In this document: positions 14,537 to 22,760 of the stretch, in pieces
How the letters are laid out: every line of letters starts with the position of its first letter
Numbering within the stretch: the first letter of the stretch is position 1
Origin: a virus
DNA: 27,858 nucleotides
Virus record (IMG/VR): IMGVR_UViG_3300028374_000052
Coordinates: 1 to 27,858 of that record
Strand: one strand, 5' to 3'
Notes under the pieces: generated by a model
The model's input: only the letters and a program-made list of their open reading frames with translations
Database searches by the model: none
Told to the model about the DNA's origin: nothing
Made by a program: the position numbers and the translations under genes

Positions 14537-14544
14537 TATTTATC
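14537..14544 (-). promoter_or_regulatory. candidate T4-type late promoter box
   Basis: The minus strand reads GATAAATA followed by TAAAAATAA, ending 26 bases before the ATG at 14511. It is one base from the T4 late consensus TATAAATA. It overlaps the UvsW stop (TGATAAATA). Such octamers are expected a few times by chance at this base composition, so only the placement supports it. Confidence 0.35.
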
Positions 14545-16462
14545 AAAGATTCACAGATTTAATTTGGTAAGGTAGTTCTACATCTTTATAAATTTTTAAC
14601 CTTTCGTACATGTGTCTAATCATGAAATTATTGAAGTAGACCTTTCCGTCTCTCTTTAAAGAAAAATCATCTGTAAAATCTATGATTAATAATTTTGATT
14701 TCTCATGATGTTTTCTTAATCCTCTACCGATACTTTGTCTTACAATTACTTCTGATTTATATGATTCTGTAAAGAAGATTGAGAAGATCTTACGTATCGA
14801 GACTCCTGTGGAAAAAGTACCATATGATGCTACAAGAATAACATTATCTCCTTGTTCCATTTTTCTCTTATATACTTCTCTAGTTTCTGTTGGAGTTGAA
14901 CCATCGACATAATAAATTTCTCTCCCTCTATTTAAATCTCTTAATTTATTATAGAGTGCTTTACCATATGCAACTCTATGAAATAATACTAGAGAATTCT
15001 TTTTAGATGTGGATATAGTTTTACAAACAAAGTCAAGACGTTGCTTGTTTTCTATAATATAATCTCTTTCAATATTATATAACCTTTTTGAATCAGCTGA
15101 TTGAGATGCTTTAAAAAATGCTTCTCTAATTTTTTCAGGTGCATAATTTAATTTGATTACTTTAATTTCTACTGGAGTAATATGTCCTTTATCAATTAAG
15201 AATCGAGTACCAACTTCAGAAACTACAGGTCCTGTTTGACTCATTAATGTTAAACGGTCAAGTGTCCCAGGCTTAGGGATTGTTCCTGATACTCCAAAGG
15301 TATAGTGGGTATGTTTACATTTCTGTAAAATTGTTTTAATTGAGTTCGCTTTCATTTTGTGGCAATTGGCAACGTTTAGTCCATTTGCTATATAATTATG
15401 ATTTAAGCCATCTTCTGATTTTATTCGAAGATTAAAAACTTCATCTTTATAATCTATTTTTTTAATTGATTTAATTTTCATAAAATAATCTTCTAAACTT
15501 AAAATTTCATCATCTTCAGTCAATTGATCTGCTCTTTTATATTCACCTGAAATTAATTTTACTTTATGATTTCCGGTAATTTTTATTGTAGATCCGTTTT
15601 CCATTTCTATTTCATACATTTGATTACCTTTTGATAAATTAGTATATACGAAATCAACTTCTTTAATTTCTTGTTTGAGTGTTCTATCATTAGTAGTATA
15701 TACTAAATCTCCTGAATTAATTTCAGATATTTTCTTTTCCGAACCATCTGACATTGTAATTAATGTATCTGGGTGCAAGCACTCATCAATACAGACAGCA
15801 TCAAATTGTGCGAAAAATTCTTTAGGTTTTTTAACTAATGATTGATAAGTACCAACAACTATATTTGAACTCTTTTTAATTTTCTTACCTGAGTAAATTA
15901 ATTGAATTTCATAATCAATTATCTTTGGGTCATTGTATTCATAAAAATCTCCATCTGCTTGTTCCACAAGAGTGACATTGGGAACTATCATTAAGATCTT
16001 TTCAAATTTTAATACTTTGATGAGATATGAAAAAACCATAAATGTAATTAAGGTCTTTCCTGCAGAAGTAGCTAATTCACCTAGGCAAGATTTGTATTTT
16101 ATTATTTTCCAAGCAGTTTCAACTTGATAATCTCTAGGTTGTAATGCATTTCCTTCGAATTGCTCAGTTACCCATGACTGGAAATCTTCTAATGAGATTC
16201 CTGAAAAATAAGAGGATAGGTTTTCAATTTCAAGTTCGAATTTGAATCTTTGACAAATATCGTAAACTTCTTTCCATAAACCAAAGGGTATAAGGTTCCC
16301 TTTGATAAATTTCACTTTACCATCCCATCCTGAATAGAATTTCTTCTTAAATGCCCAACCTTCAATTTGTTTCTCTAATGAGATATTGAGTTGGTCTATT
16401 TCAATTTGTGTAGCATCAACTATTTGTAGTAGTTTGTGCTCGTGTAAAACCTTTATTTTCAC
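14543..16462 (-). CDS. uvsW: UvsW-type DNA helicase interrupted by a mini-intein
   Basis: A superfamily 2 helicase that in T4 drives branch migration and Holliday junction processing and resolves R-loops, switching origin-dependent to recombination-dependent replication. Motif I is ELATSAGKTLIT (129-140). The DECH box is split: VCIDE (223-227), a 139-residue intein, then CHKMKAN (from 367). Motif III is GVSGTIPKPG and motif VI is RQSIGRGLRKH. Without the intein the protein is 500 aa, close to T4 UvsW (about 503). The N-terminal part (GWDGKVKFIKGNLIPFGL) matches the UvsW entry domain. The start is GTG at 16462: an in-frame TGA lies directly before it and the nearby ATG (16466) is out of frame. 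UvsY lies directly upstream, as in T4. Confidence 0.93.
   Translation of the reverse strand: MKIKVLHEHKLLQIVDATQIEIDQLNISLEKQIEGWAFKKKFYSGWDGKVKFIKGNLIPFGLWKEVYDICQRFKFELEIENLSSYFSGISLEDFQSWVTEQFEGNALQPRDYQVETAWKIIKYKSCLGELATSAGKTLITFMVFSYLIKVLKFEKILMIVPNVTLVEQADGDFYEYNDPKIIDYEIQLIYSGKKIKKSSNIVVGTYQSLVKKPKEFFAQFDAVCIDECLHPDTLITMSDGSEKKISEINSGDLVYTTNDRTLKQEIKEVDFVYTNLSKGNQMYEIEMENGSTIKITGNHKVKLISGEYKRADQLTEDDEILSLEDYFMKIKSIKKIDYKDEVFNLRIKSEDGLNHNYIANGLNVANCHKMKANSIKTILQKCKHTHYTFGVSGTIPKPGTLDRLTLMSQTGPVVSEVGTRFLIDKGHITPVEIKVIKLNYAPEKIREAFFKASQSADSKRLYNIERDYIIENKQRLDFVCKTISTSKKNSLVLFHRVAYGKALYNKLRDLNRGREIYYVDGSTPTETREVYKRKMEQGDNVILVASYGTFSTGVSIRKIFSIFFTESYKSEVIVRQSIGRGLRKHHEKSKLLIIDFTDDFSLKRDGKVYFNNFMIRHMYERLKIYKDVELPYQIKSVNL
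15365..15781 (-). other. mini-intein in the UvsW DECH box, 139 aa, no homing endonuclease
   Basis: The insert starts at Cys228 (CLHPDTLITMSDGSEKKISE), a typical block A with a Hint fold start. Block B is GSTIKITGNHKV with the conserved T-x-x-H. Block F is DEVFNLRIKSEDGLNHNYIA, and block G is NGLNVAN followed by Cys+1 of the downstream extein. The terminal Asn is present, but the usual penultimate His is Ala (VAN instead of VHN). At 139 residues it has room only for the splicing domain. Exact removal restores D-E-C-H and a normal-length UvsW, so splicing is required for helicase activity. Confidence 0.92.
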
Positions 16463-19565: not shown

Positions 19566-20249
19566 CTATTCTAAGCTAGATAGGTATTCTATTAAATGTT
19601 TAACTACAAAATAAGAATCTATAATATCGTCAAAAGGTTTAGGCACGTCTATAGAATTTTTCTTTTTAACTAATTCTATTTGATTTCTACAAAACTCTTG
19701 AAACTCAGAACCAGAAGTTATTTTTTCTTTCAAGAAGAACTCAAACATAATATCTTTCTTAGATCTACCACTACCTGTAGCAGATGATTTAATTGCTGTT
19801 GGTGCAAAGACATAAACTTCTTTCTTAGTTCTCATTTCAAAGAAATGTTTCAATATAGAAGTCATAGTAACTAAATCAATAAGTACATTCCCTTTTGCTC
19901 CATAAGCGTATCCTTCAAATGCAACAACGGTTTCTTCCCACTCTTCATCAGACATAAATGGTTCTAAAGCTTCAAATACGATATTCTTAATAGATCTACC
20001 ATTCTTTAACTTATTCCATTCATTGACATAATAAGGCTGTTTCTTATCATTAGTAACTAAAAGAGAATAATCAAATACAGAACAGTCAGAAATTTCTTCC
20101 GAAAGTATATTATGATATTGGAAAGCTTTTTTGTGGGAATTACCTTCATAATCTCGTGCTATTGAAAAAAAGTGTATTTTGTCAGGTTTAATTAAAGTAA
20201 TACCTGTGGAGTTCTTTGAAAAATCGACTCCTATAAAATTTTTAATCAT
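19566..20249 (-). CDS. RuvC-like Holliday junction nuclease
   Basis: A 227-aa RNase H-fold protein. The first strand is MIKNFIGVDFSKNSTGITLI with D9, the next acidic strand is VVAFEGYAYGAKG with E112, followed by VYVFAPTAIKSSATGSGRSK, and the C-terminal helix has PFDDIIDSYFVV (D207, D208, D211). This D-E-D/D layout is that of RuvC-type resolvases, which cut four-way junctions. T4 itself uses endonuclease VII (gp49); a RuvC-like enzyme here would do the same job of debranching replicating DNA before packaging. It ends 251 bases before gp32 and follows the leader-bearing nuclease gene by 35 bases. Confidence 0.8.
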   Translation of the reverse strand: MIKNFIGVDFSKNSTGITLIKPDKIHFFSIARDYEGNSHKKAFQYHNILSEEISDCSVFDYSLLVTNDKKQPYYVNEWNKLKNGRSIKNIVFEALEPFMSDEEWEETVVAFEGYAYGAKGNVLIDLVTMTSILKHFFEMRTKKEVYVFAPTAIKSSATGSGRSKKDIMFEFFLKEKITSGSEFQEFCRNQIELVKKKNSIDVPKPFDDIIDSYFVVKHLIEYLSSLE

Positions 20250-20284: not shown

Positions 20285-21454
20285 TTAAACTCGATATTGT
20301 TTAGCCTTATTTGAAGTAGCAGTTATTCCGGTAGCATTAGTGTCCCATTCAGCTGCACCGCTAACGTGTACATATTTTCTGAATATTTTAAATAAATCAT
20401 TAAATGAAGTATTTTTGAAATCAATTACTAAGAATGAATTTTTAGTATCAATTTGATTCTTAGAAATTTTAGGGTACATTGCTAATAAAAGATATTTAAA
20501 TCCATCATCTAAACAGTAACCATTGAAATCAACTAATGCTTTGAAATCTATAAATGCTGAATAATCTTGCTTCTCAATTATAGTTGTGATAATCTTTTCT
20601 TCATCAGATGATATTTGAGGATTCATTGGAATTCCTTCAGATCTATGTCCTCTTAAAATATATGCTAATTTTTTAAGATAATCCTTTTTTGCATTAGAAT
20701 CTAATGTAGCAATTAACTCATTTGAGTAATCAACTACATCTTTAACAAACTTTCCAGTGAATCCACCTTTAGATTTTCTGTAAAAATTAGTATATTTTGT
20801 TTGATCTACTGTTACATATTGGTCAGATAATTCAACTATATTTTTAGTGATAGTTTCAATAAAGAGATATTTTGCAACTGGTAATACTCTACCATTTTTA
20901 GATTTAACTTCTATGCTTTCATTTGCTACACTTTGTAAATCTCCATGATTTGCAAATTTTAAGTCTGTAAAAATTGAAAGTAATCCTTCTCCAGGTCCAG
21001 TGATAGGTCTAACCCCTAATTGTTTCTTAAATAACTTTTCAAAAAAATCAGCGTTGAAAAACTTTTTATAATGTTTTGCAATATCATCTATTGAATTATT
21101 AATACCATTTGATAAATTAAATTTATAAATATTATCACCATTAATTAAAATTCTTTCCAATTCCTTTAATGTCTCAGCATCTGCAACCTTTATACTTGAA
21201 GAAAATAAACTGATAATTTGTTCAGCTATTAATTCAGGTCTGTTACTGTTTGCTGTCTCTAATGTGGTTTTAAGAAGTAGAAAAATTTCTTTCTTTAATA
21301 AAGTTGATCTTACTTGATTTAATTTCTTAGAATCTTCTGCATCTGAAGTATCGAATTGTGCAATAGTATCATCTGTCTTTTTATCAGATAGATTTAAATA
21401 TTGTAATTTTTCAGTAATAAATTCTTCAAATGATATATTTAAGTATTTCTTCAT
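20285..21454 (-). CDS. putative packaged PD-(D/E)XK nuclease with T4 IP-like leader, 389 aa
   Basis: I prefer the ATG at 21454 (MKKYLNISFEEFITEKLQYL), seven bases after the upstream stop, over one eight codons earlier. The N-terminus carries FEEFITE, which matches the T4 internal-protein leader and ends in I-T-E, a prohead-protease-type site. The middle holds TGPGEGLLSIFTDLKFANHG, then GDLQSV and SIEVKSKNGRVLP. E156, D172, E182 and K184 fit the PD-(D/E)XK nuclease signature (acid, then D, then E-x-K), including the G-D-L and I-E-V-K contexts. The rest is helical. A virion-packaged DNA nuclease would be delivered at infection; a head-maturation role is an alternative. Nuclease fold fairly likely, packaging inferred. 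Confidence 0.75.
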   Translation of the reverse strand: MKKYLNISFEEFITEKLQYLNLSDKKTDDTIAQFDTSDAEDSKKLNQVRSTLLKKEIFLLLKTTLETANSNRPELIAEQIISLFSSSIKVADAETLKELERILINGDNIYKFNLSNGINNSIDDIAKHYKKFFNADFFEKLFKKQLGVRPITGPGEGLLSIFTDLKFANHGDLQSVANESIEVKSKNGRVLPVAKYLFIETITKNIVELSDQYVTVDQTKYTNFYRKSKGGFTGKFVKDVVDYSNELIATLDSNAKKDYLKKLAYILRGHRSEGIPMNPQISSDEEKIITTIIEKQDYSAFIDFKALVDFNGYCLDDGFKYLLLAMYPKISKNQIDTKNSFLVIDFKNTSFNDLFKIFRKYVHVSGAAEWDTNATGITATSNKAKQYRV

Positions 21455-21822: not shown

Positions 21823-22116
21823 TTATTTAAATAAAGGTCCGGCAGAGTTTAAATATGGCTTACCATCTATTCCGATTAATGCCCAACCTTTTTCTCCAAT
21901 TACTTCAATACTTCCGTCAGCTTGTATTTTAAATCCAACATATCTTCCAGTTTCACCTTTAGACTGTTTTCTTATTTTTGCCCAGTTTTTAGCACTTGAT
22001 ATTTCACTAACTTTATTTACTCCGAAATAATCTAGAGTTGCTTTAATAGCAGGATTAGCTGCTGTATATGTGTAATCTCTTTGCTCATTTAAAAAATCTT
22101 TAAAAGTACTGTACAT
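21823..22116 (-). CDS. putative packaged protein with T4 IP-like leader, 97 aa
   Basis: The protein starts MYSTFKDFLNEQRDYTYTAA. Its first 11 residues match M-x(3)-F-x-[ED]-F-[IL]-x-E with L-N-E as a prohead-protease-type site, as in the T4 internal proteins. The body after the leader is basic and about 85 residues long (KATLDYFGVNKVSEISSAKN; KQSKGETGRYVGFKIQADGS), with a C-terminal IGEKGWALIGIDGKPYLNSA. It resembles a small beta-rich domain with no recognised family. Its start overlaps the end of the 23-aa leader-like ORF by 17 bases. Packaging into the head is inferred from the leader. Confidence 0.75.
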   Translation of the reverse strand: MYSTFKDFLNEQRDYTYTAANPAIKATLDYFGVNKVSEISSAKNWAKIRKQSKGETGRYVGFKIQADGSIEVIGEKGWALIGIDGKPYLNSAGPLFK

Positions 22117-22171
22117 AATTAGTTATTTTAATTTTTGATTCATTTATGAATTCTTCGAAATTAGTAAACAT
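22100..22171 (-). CDS. 23-aa ORF consisting almost only of the IP-like leader
   Basis: The frame encodes MFTNFEEFINESKIKITNYV then QYF and stop. Its first 11 residues follow the leader pattern with I-N-E at the end, as in the neighbouring genes, but no body follows. It overlaps the next gene in another frame by 17 bases. A GATAAATA box lies 23 bases upstream, the same arrangement as for the 122-aa leader protein at 14511. It may be a remnant of a packaged protein gene whose body was lost, or a real short peptide. The leader match makes chance unlikely. Confidence 0.6.
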   Translation of the reverse strand: MFTNFEEFINESKIKITNYVQYF

Positions 22172-22205: not shown

Positions 22206-22760
22206 TTAATCAAATGGGAATTTAATCTCATATGAGTTAAAAACGAAAGTAGCATCAAAAGAATTGAATTGCTGTACATTATCCGAATAGTTCAATTGAA
22301 GTTCTTGCATATTTGTAAATAAGACATCTTTCATTACAAATTGCATTAATCTATTTCCATCACCATCAACGGTAAATAAAGTCATTGTAGGACAGTAGTT
22401 CTCTGTATTGTAAAAATCATACCAATAGTCGAATAATTCCATTAACAAGAAATAATTAGCGTATCCATCAATTAACTGAAAAGTAACTGATAATTCTTTT
22501 GAAGATGTTTGTCCTATTGGAGCAGATGATCTCCATTTTCTTTCCTGTCTTTTTCTTTGTGTATGGGATTGTTCTGCTGGATCATATGAAAGAGATGATG
22601 TATTAACTCCTTGAATCGTAAAATTTAAAAACTCAGGAACCTCTTGAATAGGTGAAGGTGCTCTTCTTACATATTTAACCCATTTATCTCTAATTTCTTG
22701 AGGGAAAAAAGTTTTTGGGAATTGAAATTCGAATAAATCATTTCTTGCATCTAATAGCAT
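22206..22760 (-). CDS. tail-tube-like structural protein, 184 aa
   Basis: The protein starts MLLDARNDLFEFQFPKTFFP. Visible segments are FLNFTIQGVNTSSLSYDPAE, KELSVTFQLIDGYANYFLLM, YCPTMTLFTVDGDGNRLMQF and LQLNYSDNVQQFNSFDATFV. Alternating strands, a Y-W-Y-rich helix and a C-terminal strand pair of this kind are typical of the contractile-tail tube fold (gp19/gp54-like baseplate and tube proteins). I cannot tell which tail component it is. Its ATG overlaps the stop of the 678-aa gene (TAATG at 22760), consistent with coordinated structural expression. Assignment to the tail is by pattern and context. Confidence 0.55.
   Translation of the reverse strand: MLLDARNDLFEFQFPKTFFPQEIRDKWVKYVRRAPSPIQEVPEFLNFTIQGVNTSSLSYDPAEQSHTQRKRQERKWRSSAPIGQTSSKELSVTFQLIDGYANYFLLMELFDYWYDFYNTENYCPTMTLFTVDGDGNRLMQFVMKDVLFTNMQELQLNYSDNVQQFNSFDATFVFNSYEIKFPFD

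Follow-up and report, generated by a model that had tools for sequence, protein, structure and literature searches.

Phage T4 sends its internal proteins to the head by means of a short N-terminal sequence, which is cut at an L/I-X-E site, as described in passages of PMC9026906. Foreign EcoRI or staphylococcal nuclease fused to the T4 internal protein IPIII or to its leader (CTS) was packed in T4 heads and delivered to cells, according to passages of PMC9026906 and PMC3012670; the latter source also describes how T4 IPI* blocks the gmrS/gmrD enzyme. Head-packaged enzymes allow a phage to act ahead of any transcription. In the accessible portions of the open-licence PMC literature, neither a natural class of head-packaged nucleases nor a family such as the one analyzed below was found described, and no proteomics of a family member was found in that literature.

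The window analyzed here is a virus record of 27.9 kb, IMGVR_UViG_3300028374_000052 of IMG/VR, taken over its whole length of 27,858 nucleotides. One of its genes encodes the protein P0001 (Table 1); the plus-strand reading of the same interval, 20285–21454, was ruled out because of stops throughout. The N-terminal leader of P0001 is MKKYLNISFEEFITEK, in which I13-T14-E15 fits the T4 head-protease site L/I-X-E described in PMC9026906. Its first residues (MKKYLNISFEEFITE) form an N-terminal leader of the L/I-X-E type found in the head-targeted internal proteins of T4, and the predicted head-protease cut lies after E15. The acid, D, and (D/E)xK residues stand in PD-(D/E)XK order, and the ORF sequence bears out the motif and the numbering (E156, D172, E182, and K184) given in the original prediction; IEVKSKNGR covers residues 181–189. 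RNA structure around the start codon was unremarkable. In the near-identical contig L002 (5944–7170), MKKY is doubled at the leader start (MKKYMKKYLNIS) with the reading frame kept. We hold with moderate confidence that P0001 is most likely a head-packaged PD-(D/E)XK-type nuclease.

Table 1. P0001, its sequence features, and the genes next to it in the window.
Feature	Coordinates	Strand	Evidence
RuvC-like gene, other side of the P0001 slot	19566..20249	minus	phrog_159, 8.2e-15
P0001, 389-aa leader-bearing PD-(D/E)XK-like protein	20285..21454	minus	ATG start, 389 aa plus stop
Y313 codon of P0001; tyrosine conserved family-wide, outside the search motif	20516..20518	minus	Y in 89/96 other rows
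NGR, P0001 residues 187–189; GGR in most family members	20888..20896	minus	R in 74/96 other alignment rows
IEVK, P0001 residues 181–184 (E182, K184), predicted strand 180–184	20903..20914	minus	
GDL, P0001 residues 171–173 (D172)	20936..20944	minus	
GPGE, P0001 residues 153–156; E156 opens predicted helix (154–162)	20987..20998	minus	
P0001 leader, residues 1–15 (MKKYLNISFEEFITE), possible head-protease site after E15 (I-T-E)	21410..21454	minus	sequence; L/I-X-E rule as described in PMC9026906; aligned in L101
116-aa leader-like gene, immediately upstream of P0001	21462..21812	minus	LR756500 relative in the same place, 46% over 113 residues
97-aa leader-bearing gene (MYSTFKDFLNEQ)	21823..22116	minus	

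Direct searches of IMG/VR with P0001 returned nothing beyond a near-identical (98%) contig. In a phage collection P0001 had two weak matches (E 0.6 and 3), and it had no match among PDB sequences, in Pfam, in PHROGs, or among solved structures. The stretch IEVKxxNGR was tried alone as a family handle and rejected as unspecific by itself, because only one of the 57 stretches found, that of the near-identical contig, had GPGE; the remainder were VRR-NUC-like, baseplate-like, or chance ORFs. Two scans of IMG/VR, one for each of two glycine codons, used a DNA pattern that encodes GPGE, GD, and E-x-K at variable spacing and gave at least 240 loci; an in-frame ORF with the motif was present at 184 of the 240 loci listed. 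With seven chance loci (L100, L123, L161, L165, L189, L237, and L285) and one truncated ORF (L179) left out, at least 176 members remained, and the real family exceeds 176 members. Those with a domain of at least 200 amino acids comprised at least 124 distinct proteins at 90% identity and at least 96 at 70%. The family signature is GPGE-GD-E[VIL]K-(GGR).

No consistent match was found in Pfam, PHROGs, NCBIfam, or PADLOC for any of the 97 aligned members. The family profile had five matches among PDB sequences (best E 0.03), which were dismissed, all being to stretches outside the motif. No relative was found in a bacterial genome collection with P0003 or A4 as the query. In the phage collection, P0003 matched Flavobacterium phage immuto only, plus one short weak match, and the ten family queries other than L073, among which were P0001 itself and 53 residues of it, found no member besides immuto. 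Family members are not always adjacent to head genes. On two phage contigs, genes that we take to be of the curli type (with repeats such as VYIEQIGNSNTVTITQVG) adjoin family members (L084 7466–10642 and L110 3626–6829).

The family was collected by the motif of P0001 itself, so the invariance of the motif in alignment A1 is by construction and proves nothing. A profile made from 44 other members gave P0001 35.6 bits, as against a mean of 0.4 (sd 3.2, maximum 18.0) for 1000 shuffles that kept the eight motif residues. With these residues masked, P0001 scored 6.4 bits (masked shuffles: mean −0.33, sd 1.9, maximum 7.6), and the 3698 background ORFs reached 11.5 bits in this test; most of the score therefore comes from the motif in context, and the masked-motif score is weak support for membership. 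Outside the search pattern, Y313 is conserved in 89 of the 96 other rows and the R after E-x-K in 74 of the 96.

The closest distinct relative of P0001 among the matches listed is L101, with a BLASTP match of 27% over 201 alignment columns (residues 7–195), from the leader through the motif (E 8e-15, single comparison). A profile built without both proteins gave 68.8 bits for L101 and 26.0 bits for P0001, and a profile of P0001, L101, and L002 matched with 96.8% probability (E 2.9e-10). The L101 protein, unannotated and 345 amino acids long, is encoded on a 238-kb contig (IMGVR_UViG_3300043425_001539) and shares with P0001 the leader and GPGE-GDL-VEVKxKNGR. Other leader-bearing ORFs lie alongside its gene, as they do in the window; however, no other shared gene and no synteny with the window were found in the 26 kb around L101. 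Judged by sequence comparison, P0001 belongs, as a divergent member, to a phage protein family that is widespread and uncatalogued.

The original prediction had called P0001 leader-bearing, and this holds: its leader is of the T4 type, and such leaders are enriched in the family, where a strict pattern, written after the leaders were read, occurred among the matches listed in 76 of 112 distinct members with complete N-termini vs. 122 of 644 other ORFs of the same loci. The bare [LI]xE site, taken from T4, was present within residues 1–20 of 80 of the 112 members and of 194 of the 644 neighboring ORFs, again among the matches listed. In a sizeable share of the members the N-terminus is of another kind (SLxDIY, EWxYR, or unclassified). 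Near family members, several ORFs (L092 2612–3277, L268 3552–4574, L207 3829–5304, and L190 3118–4038) carry a T4-type leader ahead of a G(R/W)xNP(P/A)T(I/L)GH stretch, which we take to be nucleotidyltransferase-like; given these ORFs, enzymes other than nuclease-like proteins may be targeted to the head too.

Leader-like N-termini also recur in the window itself. The pattern [FY]x[EDQ][FWIYL], chosen post hoc from the leaders, was found within the first 20 residues of 11 of the 31 window ORFs, some of them not leader-looking, with about 6.5% expected per ORF. A mini-ORF of 23 codons (MFTNFEEFINESKIKITNYVQYF; 22098–22169, minus strand), barely more than a leader, overlaps the start of the 97-aa leader-bearing gene and may be what is left of a cargo gene that was lost or exchanged.

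The tail-tube-like gene of the window (22206–22760) has relatives in huge phages and Bacteroidetes phages (a 462-kb uncultured phage, Tenacibaculum phages, and Lak phages). The order of tube gene, leader-like gene (116/125 aa), P0001 slot, RuvC, SSB, primase, and UvsW is kept in the 462-kb phage LR756500 with extra genes interspersed. There, the slot is occupied by a 283-aa protein (L005 13004–13855) without the nuclease motif and with no strong match in Pfam or PHROGs, and neither P0001 nor the family profile matched the LR756500 genome. P0001 was unmatched in all six huge phages related via the tube gene; in the same six, the family profile gave nothing below E 0.1, a lone weak match in LR756502 (E 0.256) not being counted. 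The UvsW-like helicase gene (14543–16462, minus strand) contains an apparent intein (CLHPDTLITMSDGSEKKISEINSGDLVYT ... NYIANGLNVANC), and each of the two flanking halves has its own alignment to the LR756500 relative, which has no intein.

This neighborhood bears on where P0001 would act. As the RuvC-like, SSB, primase, and UvsW genes adjoin it, and part of the family has no T4-type leader, P0001 could be a PD-(D/E)XK nuclease acting in the infected cell on phage DNA (in recombination, resolution, repair, or packaging) rather than traveling in the head, its leader serving as a tether to assembling heads or having some other meaning. We consider this unlikely, since the leader is enriched across the family and is common to ORFs of the window outside replication, and since LR756500 keeps the replication genes and yet has an unrelated protein in the slot.

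The tblastn search with member L073 led to a cultured homologue, gp078 of Flavobacterium phage vB_FspM_immuto (KNV73_gp078, "hypothetical protein"; host Flavobacterium sp. LMO8), encoded upstream of and close to the terminase, portal, prohead protease, and major capsid genes. It matched the family profile with 94.9% probability (E 4.4e-8) and has counterparts of the family features in GKGE, KGD, IEIK, and the conserved Y. In contrast to P0001, the leader of gp078 is of the EWAFRCKKGYPD type, GKGE stands in place of GPGE, and the R after ExK is absent. Relatives of gp078 were retrieved with six peptides, mostly outside the motif, and 16 distinct proteins, including that of immuto, share the first 42 residues at no less than 79%. 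Ten of the 16 matched the family profile (33.6–91.0 bits for the nine besides immuto), and the remaining six (6.2 bits or less) were classed as other cargo and left out; since the profile leans on the motif, this division is in part circular. The E, D, and E-x-K residues are kept in all ten profile-matching members, while GPGE varies to G[KRE]GE; five of the six set-aside proteins have a "D-[IL]-I...SLK" stretch and one has "GRGE...KDV...LEVK".

Within the ten immuto-type members the leader is 89% identical on average and the rest 29%; between the ten and the six, the leader is 87% and the rest 24% identical. Judging from these sequence identities, the part behind the immuto-type leader is evidently fast-evolving or swapped. 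The proteins L332, L334, L335, L336, and L337 have the immuto-type leader joined to a domain of another kind (SLGTISEVLLTKLL...D[IL]I.NG..ISLKTT), perhaps a further cargo resembling a nuclease. The EWxYR leader was also considered as a multi-cargo signal within one genome; this was not borne out, the leader being found once per genome in four of four records, two of which (immuto and one IMG/VR record) share length and match place.

Rapid divergence behind a conserved leader would suit anti-defence as well, and the injected internal proteins of T4 with a known role include an inhibitor, as described in passages of PMC3012670. P0001 could then be packaged and injected without being a working nuclease, its nuclease-like fold binding DNA or blocking a host enzyme in the manner of T4 IPI* and gmrS/gmrD. 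We find this very improbable: the four putative catalytic residues are kept in ten of ten immuto-type members, the rest of which is about 29% identical.

AlphaFold2 gave a mean pLDDT of 40.0 for the single sequence of P0001, and this model was not used. With alignment A1 the mean pLDDT was 70.6, and most ten-residue blocks of residues 151–360 had values of 78–91, with dips at 191–200, 271–280, and 331–340. In the A1-based model, E156 lies in helix 154–162, D172 before a short strand, and E182 and K184 on strand 180–184. This placement of helix and strands resembles the arrangement of EcoRI and EcoRV, in which the second and third strands bear the catalytic acids and the lysine, as described in a passage of PMC4081073.

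Foldseek found no confident match to the model in the PDB, and the best match in a viral structure library (E 1.4e-3) was an uncharacterised phage protein. VIA-align aligned residues 150–387 of the model with HhaI endonuclease (Z 4.5, rmsd 5.4, 133 residues), a Z below 8 that, by the tool's own warning, may reflect merely a common arrangement; the other rows, mostly helical stretches (36–105 or 194–275), were not read as function. Profile comparison of the family with HhaI, MutH, and VRR-NUC established no link. Against 14 proteins, presumably VRR-NUC-like, hhalign gave 26 columns with a probability of 11.7, and 3.7 for a baseplate-like control.

The nuclease assignment of the original prediction is thus sustained in part. 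The motif, its retention in relatives, and the model speak for it, with E156 on a helix, E182 and K184 on a strand, and a helix/strand order that fits an alpha/beta core having D on the second and ExK on the third strand. Confident similarity to a solved nuclease did not emerge: no PDB match of Foldseek was confident, the best relevant alignment was that with HhaI at Z 4.5, and the profile searches gave neither a match in the family libraries nor a link to HhaI, VRR-NUC, or MutH. Because of the missing confident PDB match and the failure of profiles to tie the family to HhaI, MutH, or VRR-NUC, we hold the PD-(D/E)XK assignment of P0001, as seen in the model, as probable. That the motif is coincidental in an unrelated fold and P0001 is a structural or other head protein would agree with the absence of a confident structure or profile match to any nuclease and with the presence of IEVKxxNGR in baseplate-like proteins outside the family, but is hardly to be expected given the conservation of E, D, and ExK in the expected order, the helix/strand placement, and a whole C-terminal domain alignable to HhaI.

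A head-packaged nuclease is favored by the motif family of at least 176 members, the profile score of P0001 obtained without itself, and the homology to L101 over leader and motif; by E, D, and ExK in ten of ten immuto-type members and Y313 conserved outside the motif; by the AlphaFold2 helix/strand placement together with the weak whole-domain HhaI alignment; and by leaders in the family, on other window ORFs, and beside L101, the immuto member close to head genes, and the T4 precedent. Against it stand the lack of a confident solved-nuclease match and of a profile link, the 6.4 bits of masked P0001, the other N-termini in part of the family, members that are not always beside head genes, and the gathering of the family by motif.

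For such a head-packaged nuclease, we infer packaging, leader cleavage, DNA cutting, target, and means of self-protection as follows. The N-terminal leader would bring P0001 into the prohead core, and the head protease would probably remove it after E15. The C-terminal half would be a metal-dependent PD-(D/E)XK-type nuclease with E156, D172, E182, and K184 as the active site. P0001 would exit the head together with the phage DNA and cut DNA in the newly entered cell, its target being the host chromosome, a plasmid, or the genome of a rival phage. The DNA of the phage itself might be spared by being chemically modified, by the sequence specificity of the enzyme, or by metal exclusion in the head.

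A broader proposal is offered tentatively: large and marine phages might carry, packed in the head, a widespread and undescribed class of "first-strike" nucleases, in which a conserved targeting leader is followed by nuclease domains that diverge fast and can be exchanged. Entering the cell with the genome, these enzymes would break down the DNA of hosts, plasmids, or competitors ahead of any phage gene expression, and they would diversify as restriction enzymes do, in an arms race. If the head-packaged reading is right, it would account for a large set of "hypothetical" phage proteins and provide a testable route by which jumbo phages could take over the host early or exclude superinfecting phages, with Flavobacterium phage immuto as a cultured test case.

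Among known enzymes, the HhaI restriction endonuclease (PDB 6uke) has SD...IEAK in an order similar to that of P0001 and aligns weakly over the entire C-terminal domain; it differs from P0001 in having no sequence homology detectable by profile comparison and no phage leader. The internal head proteins of T4 (IPI, IPII, IPIII, and Alt) have a short leader with L/I-X-E and varied cargo behind it, as described in passages of PMC9026906, and the leader of P0001 is alike. However, none of the T4 internal proteins described in the passages of PMC9026906 and PMC3012670 is a nuclease, Alt being an ADP-ribosyltransferase and IPI an enzyme inhibitor. T4 heads with staphylococcal nuclease or EcoRI, described in passages of PMC9026906, combine a leader and a nuclease as P0001 would, but they are artificial, whereas the fusion proposed for P0001 would be a natural one.
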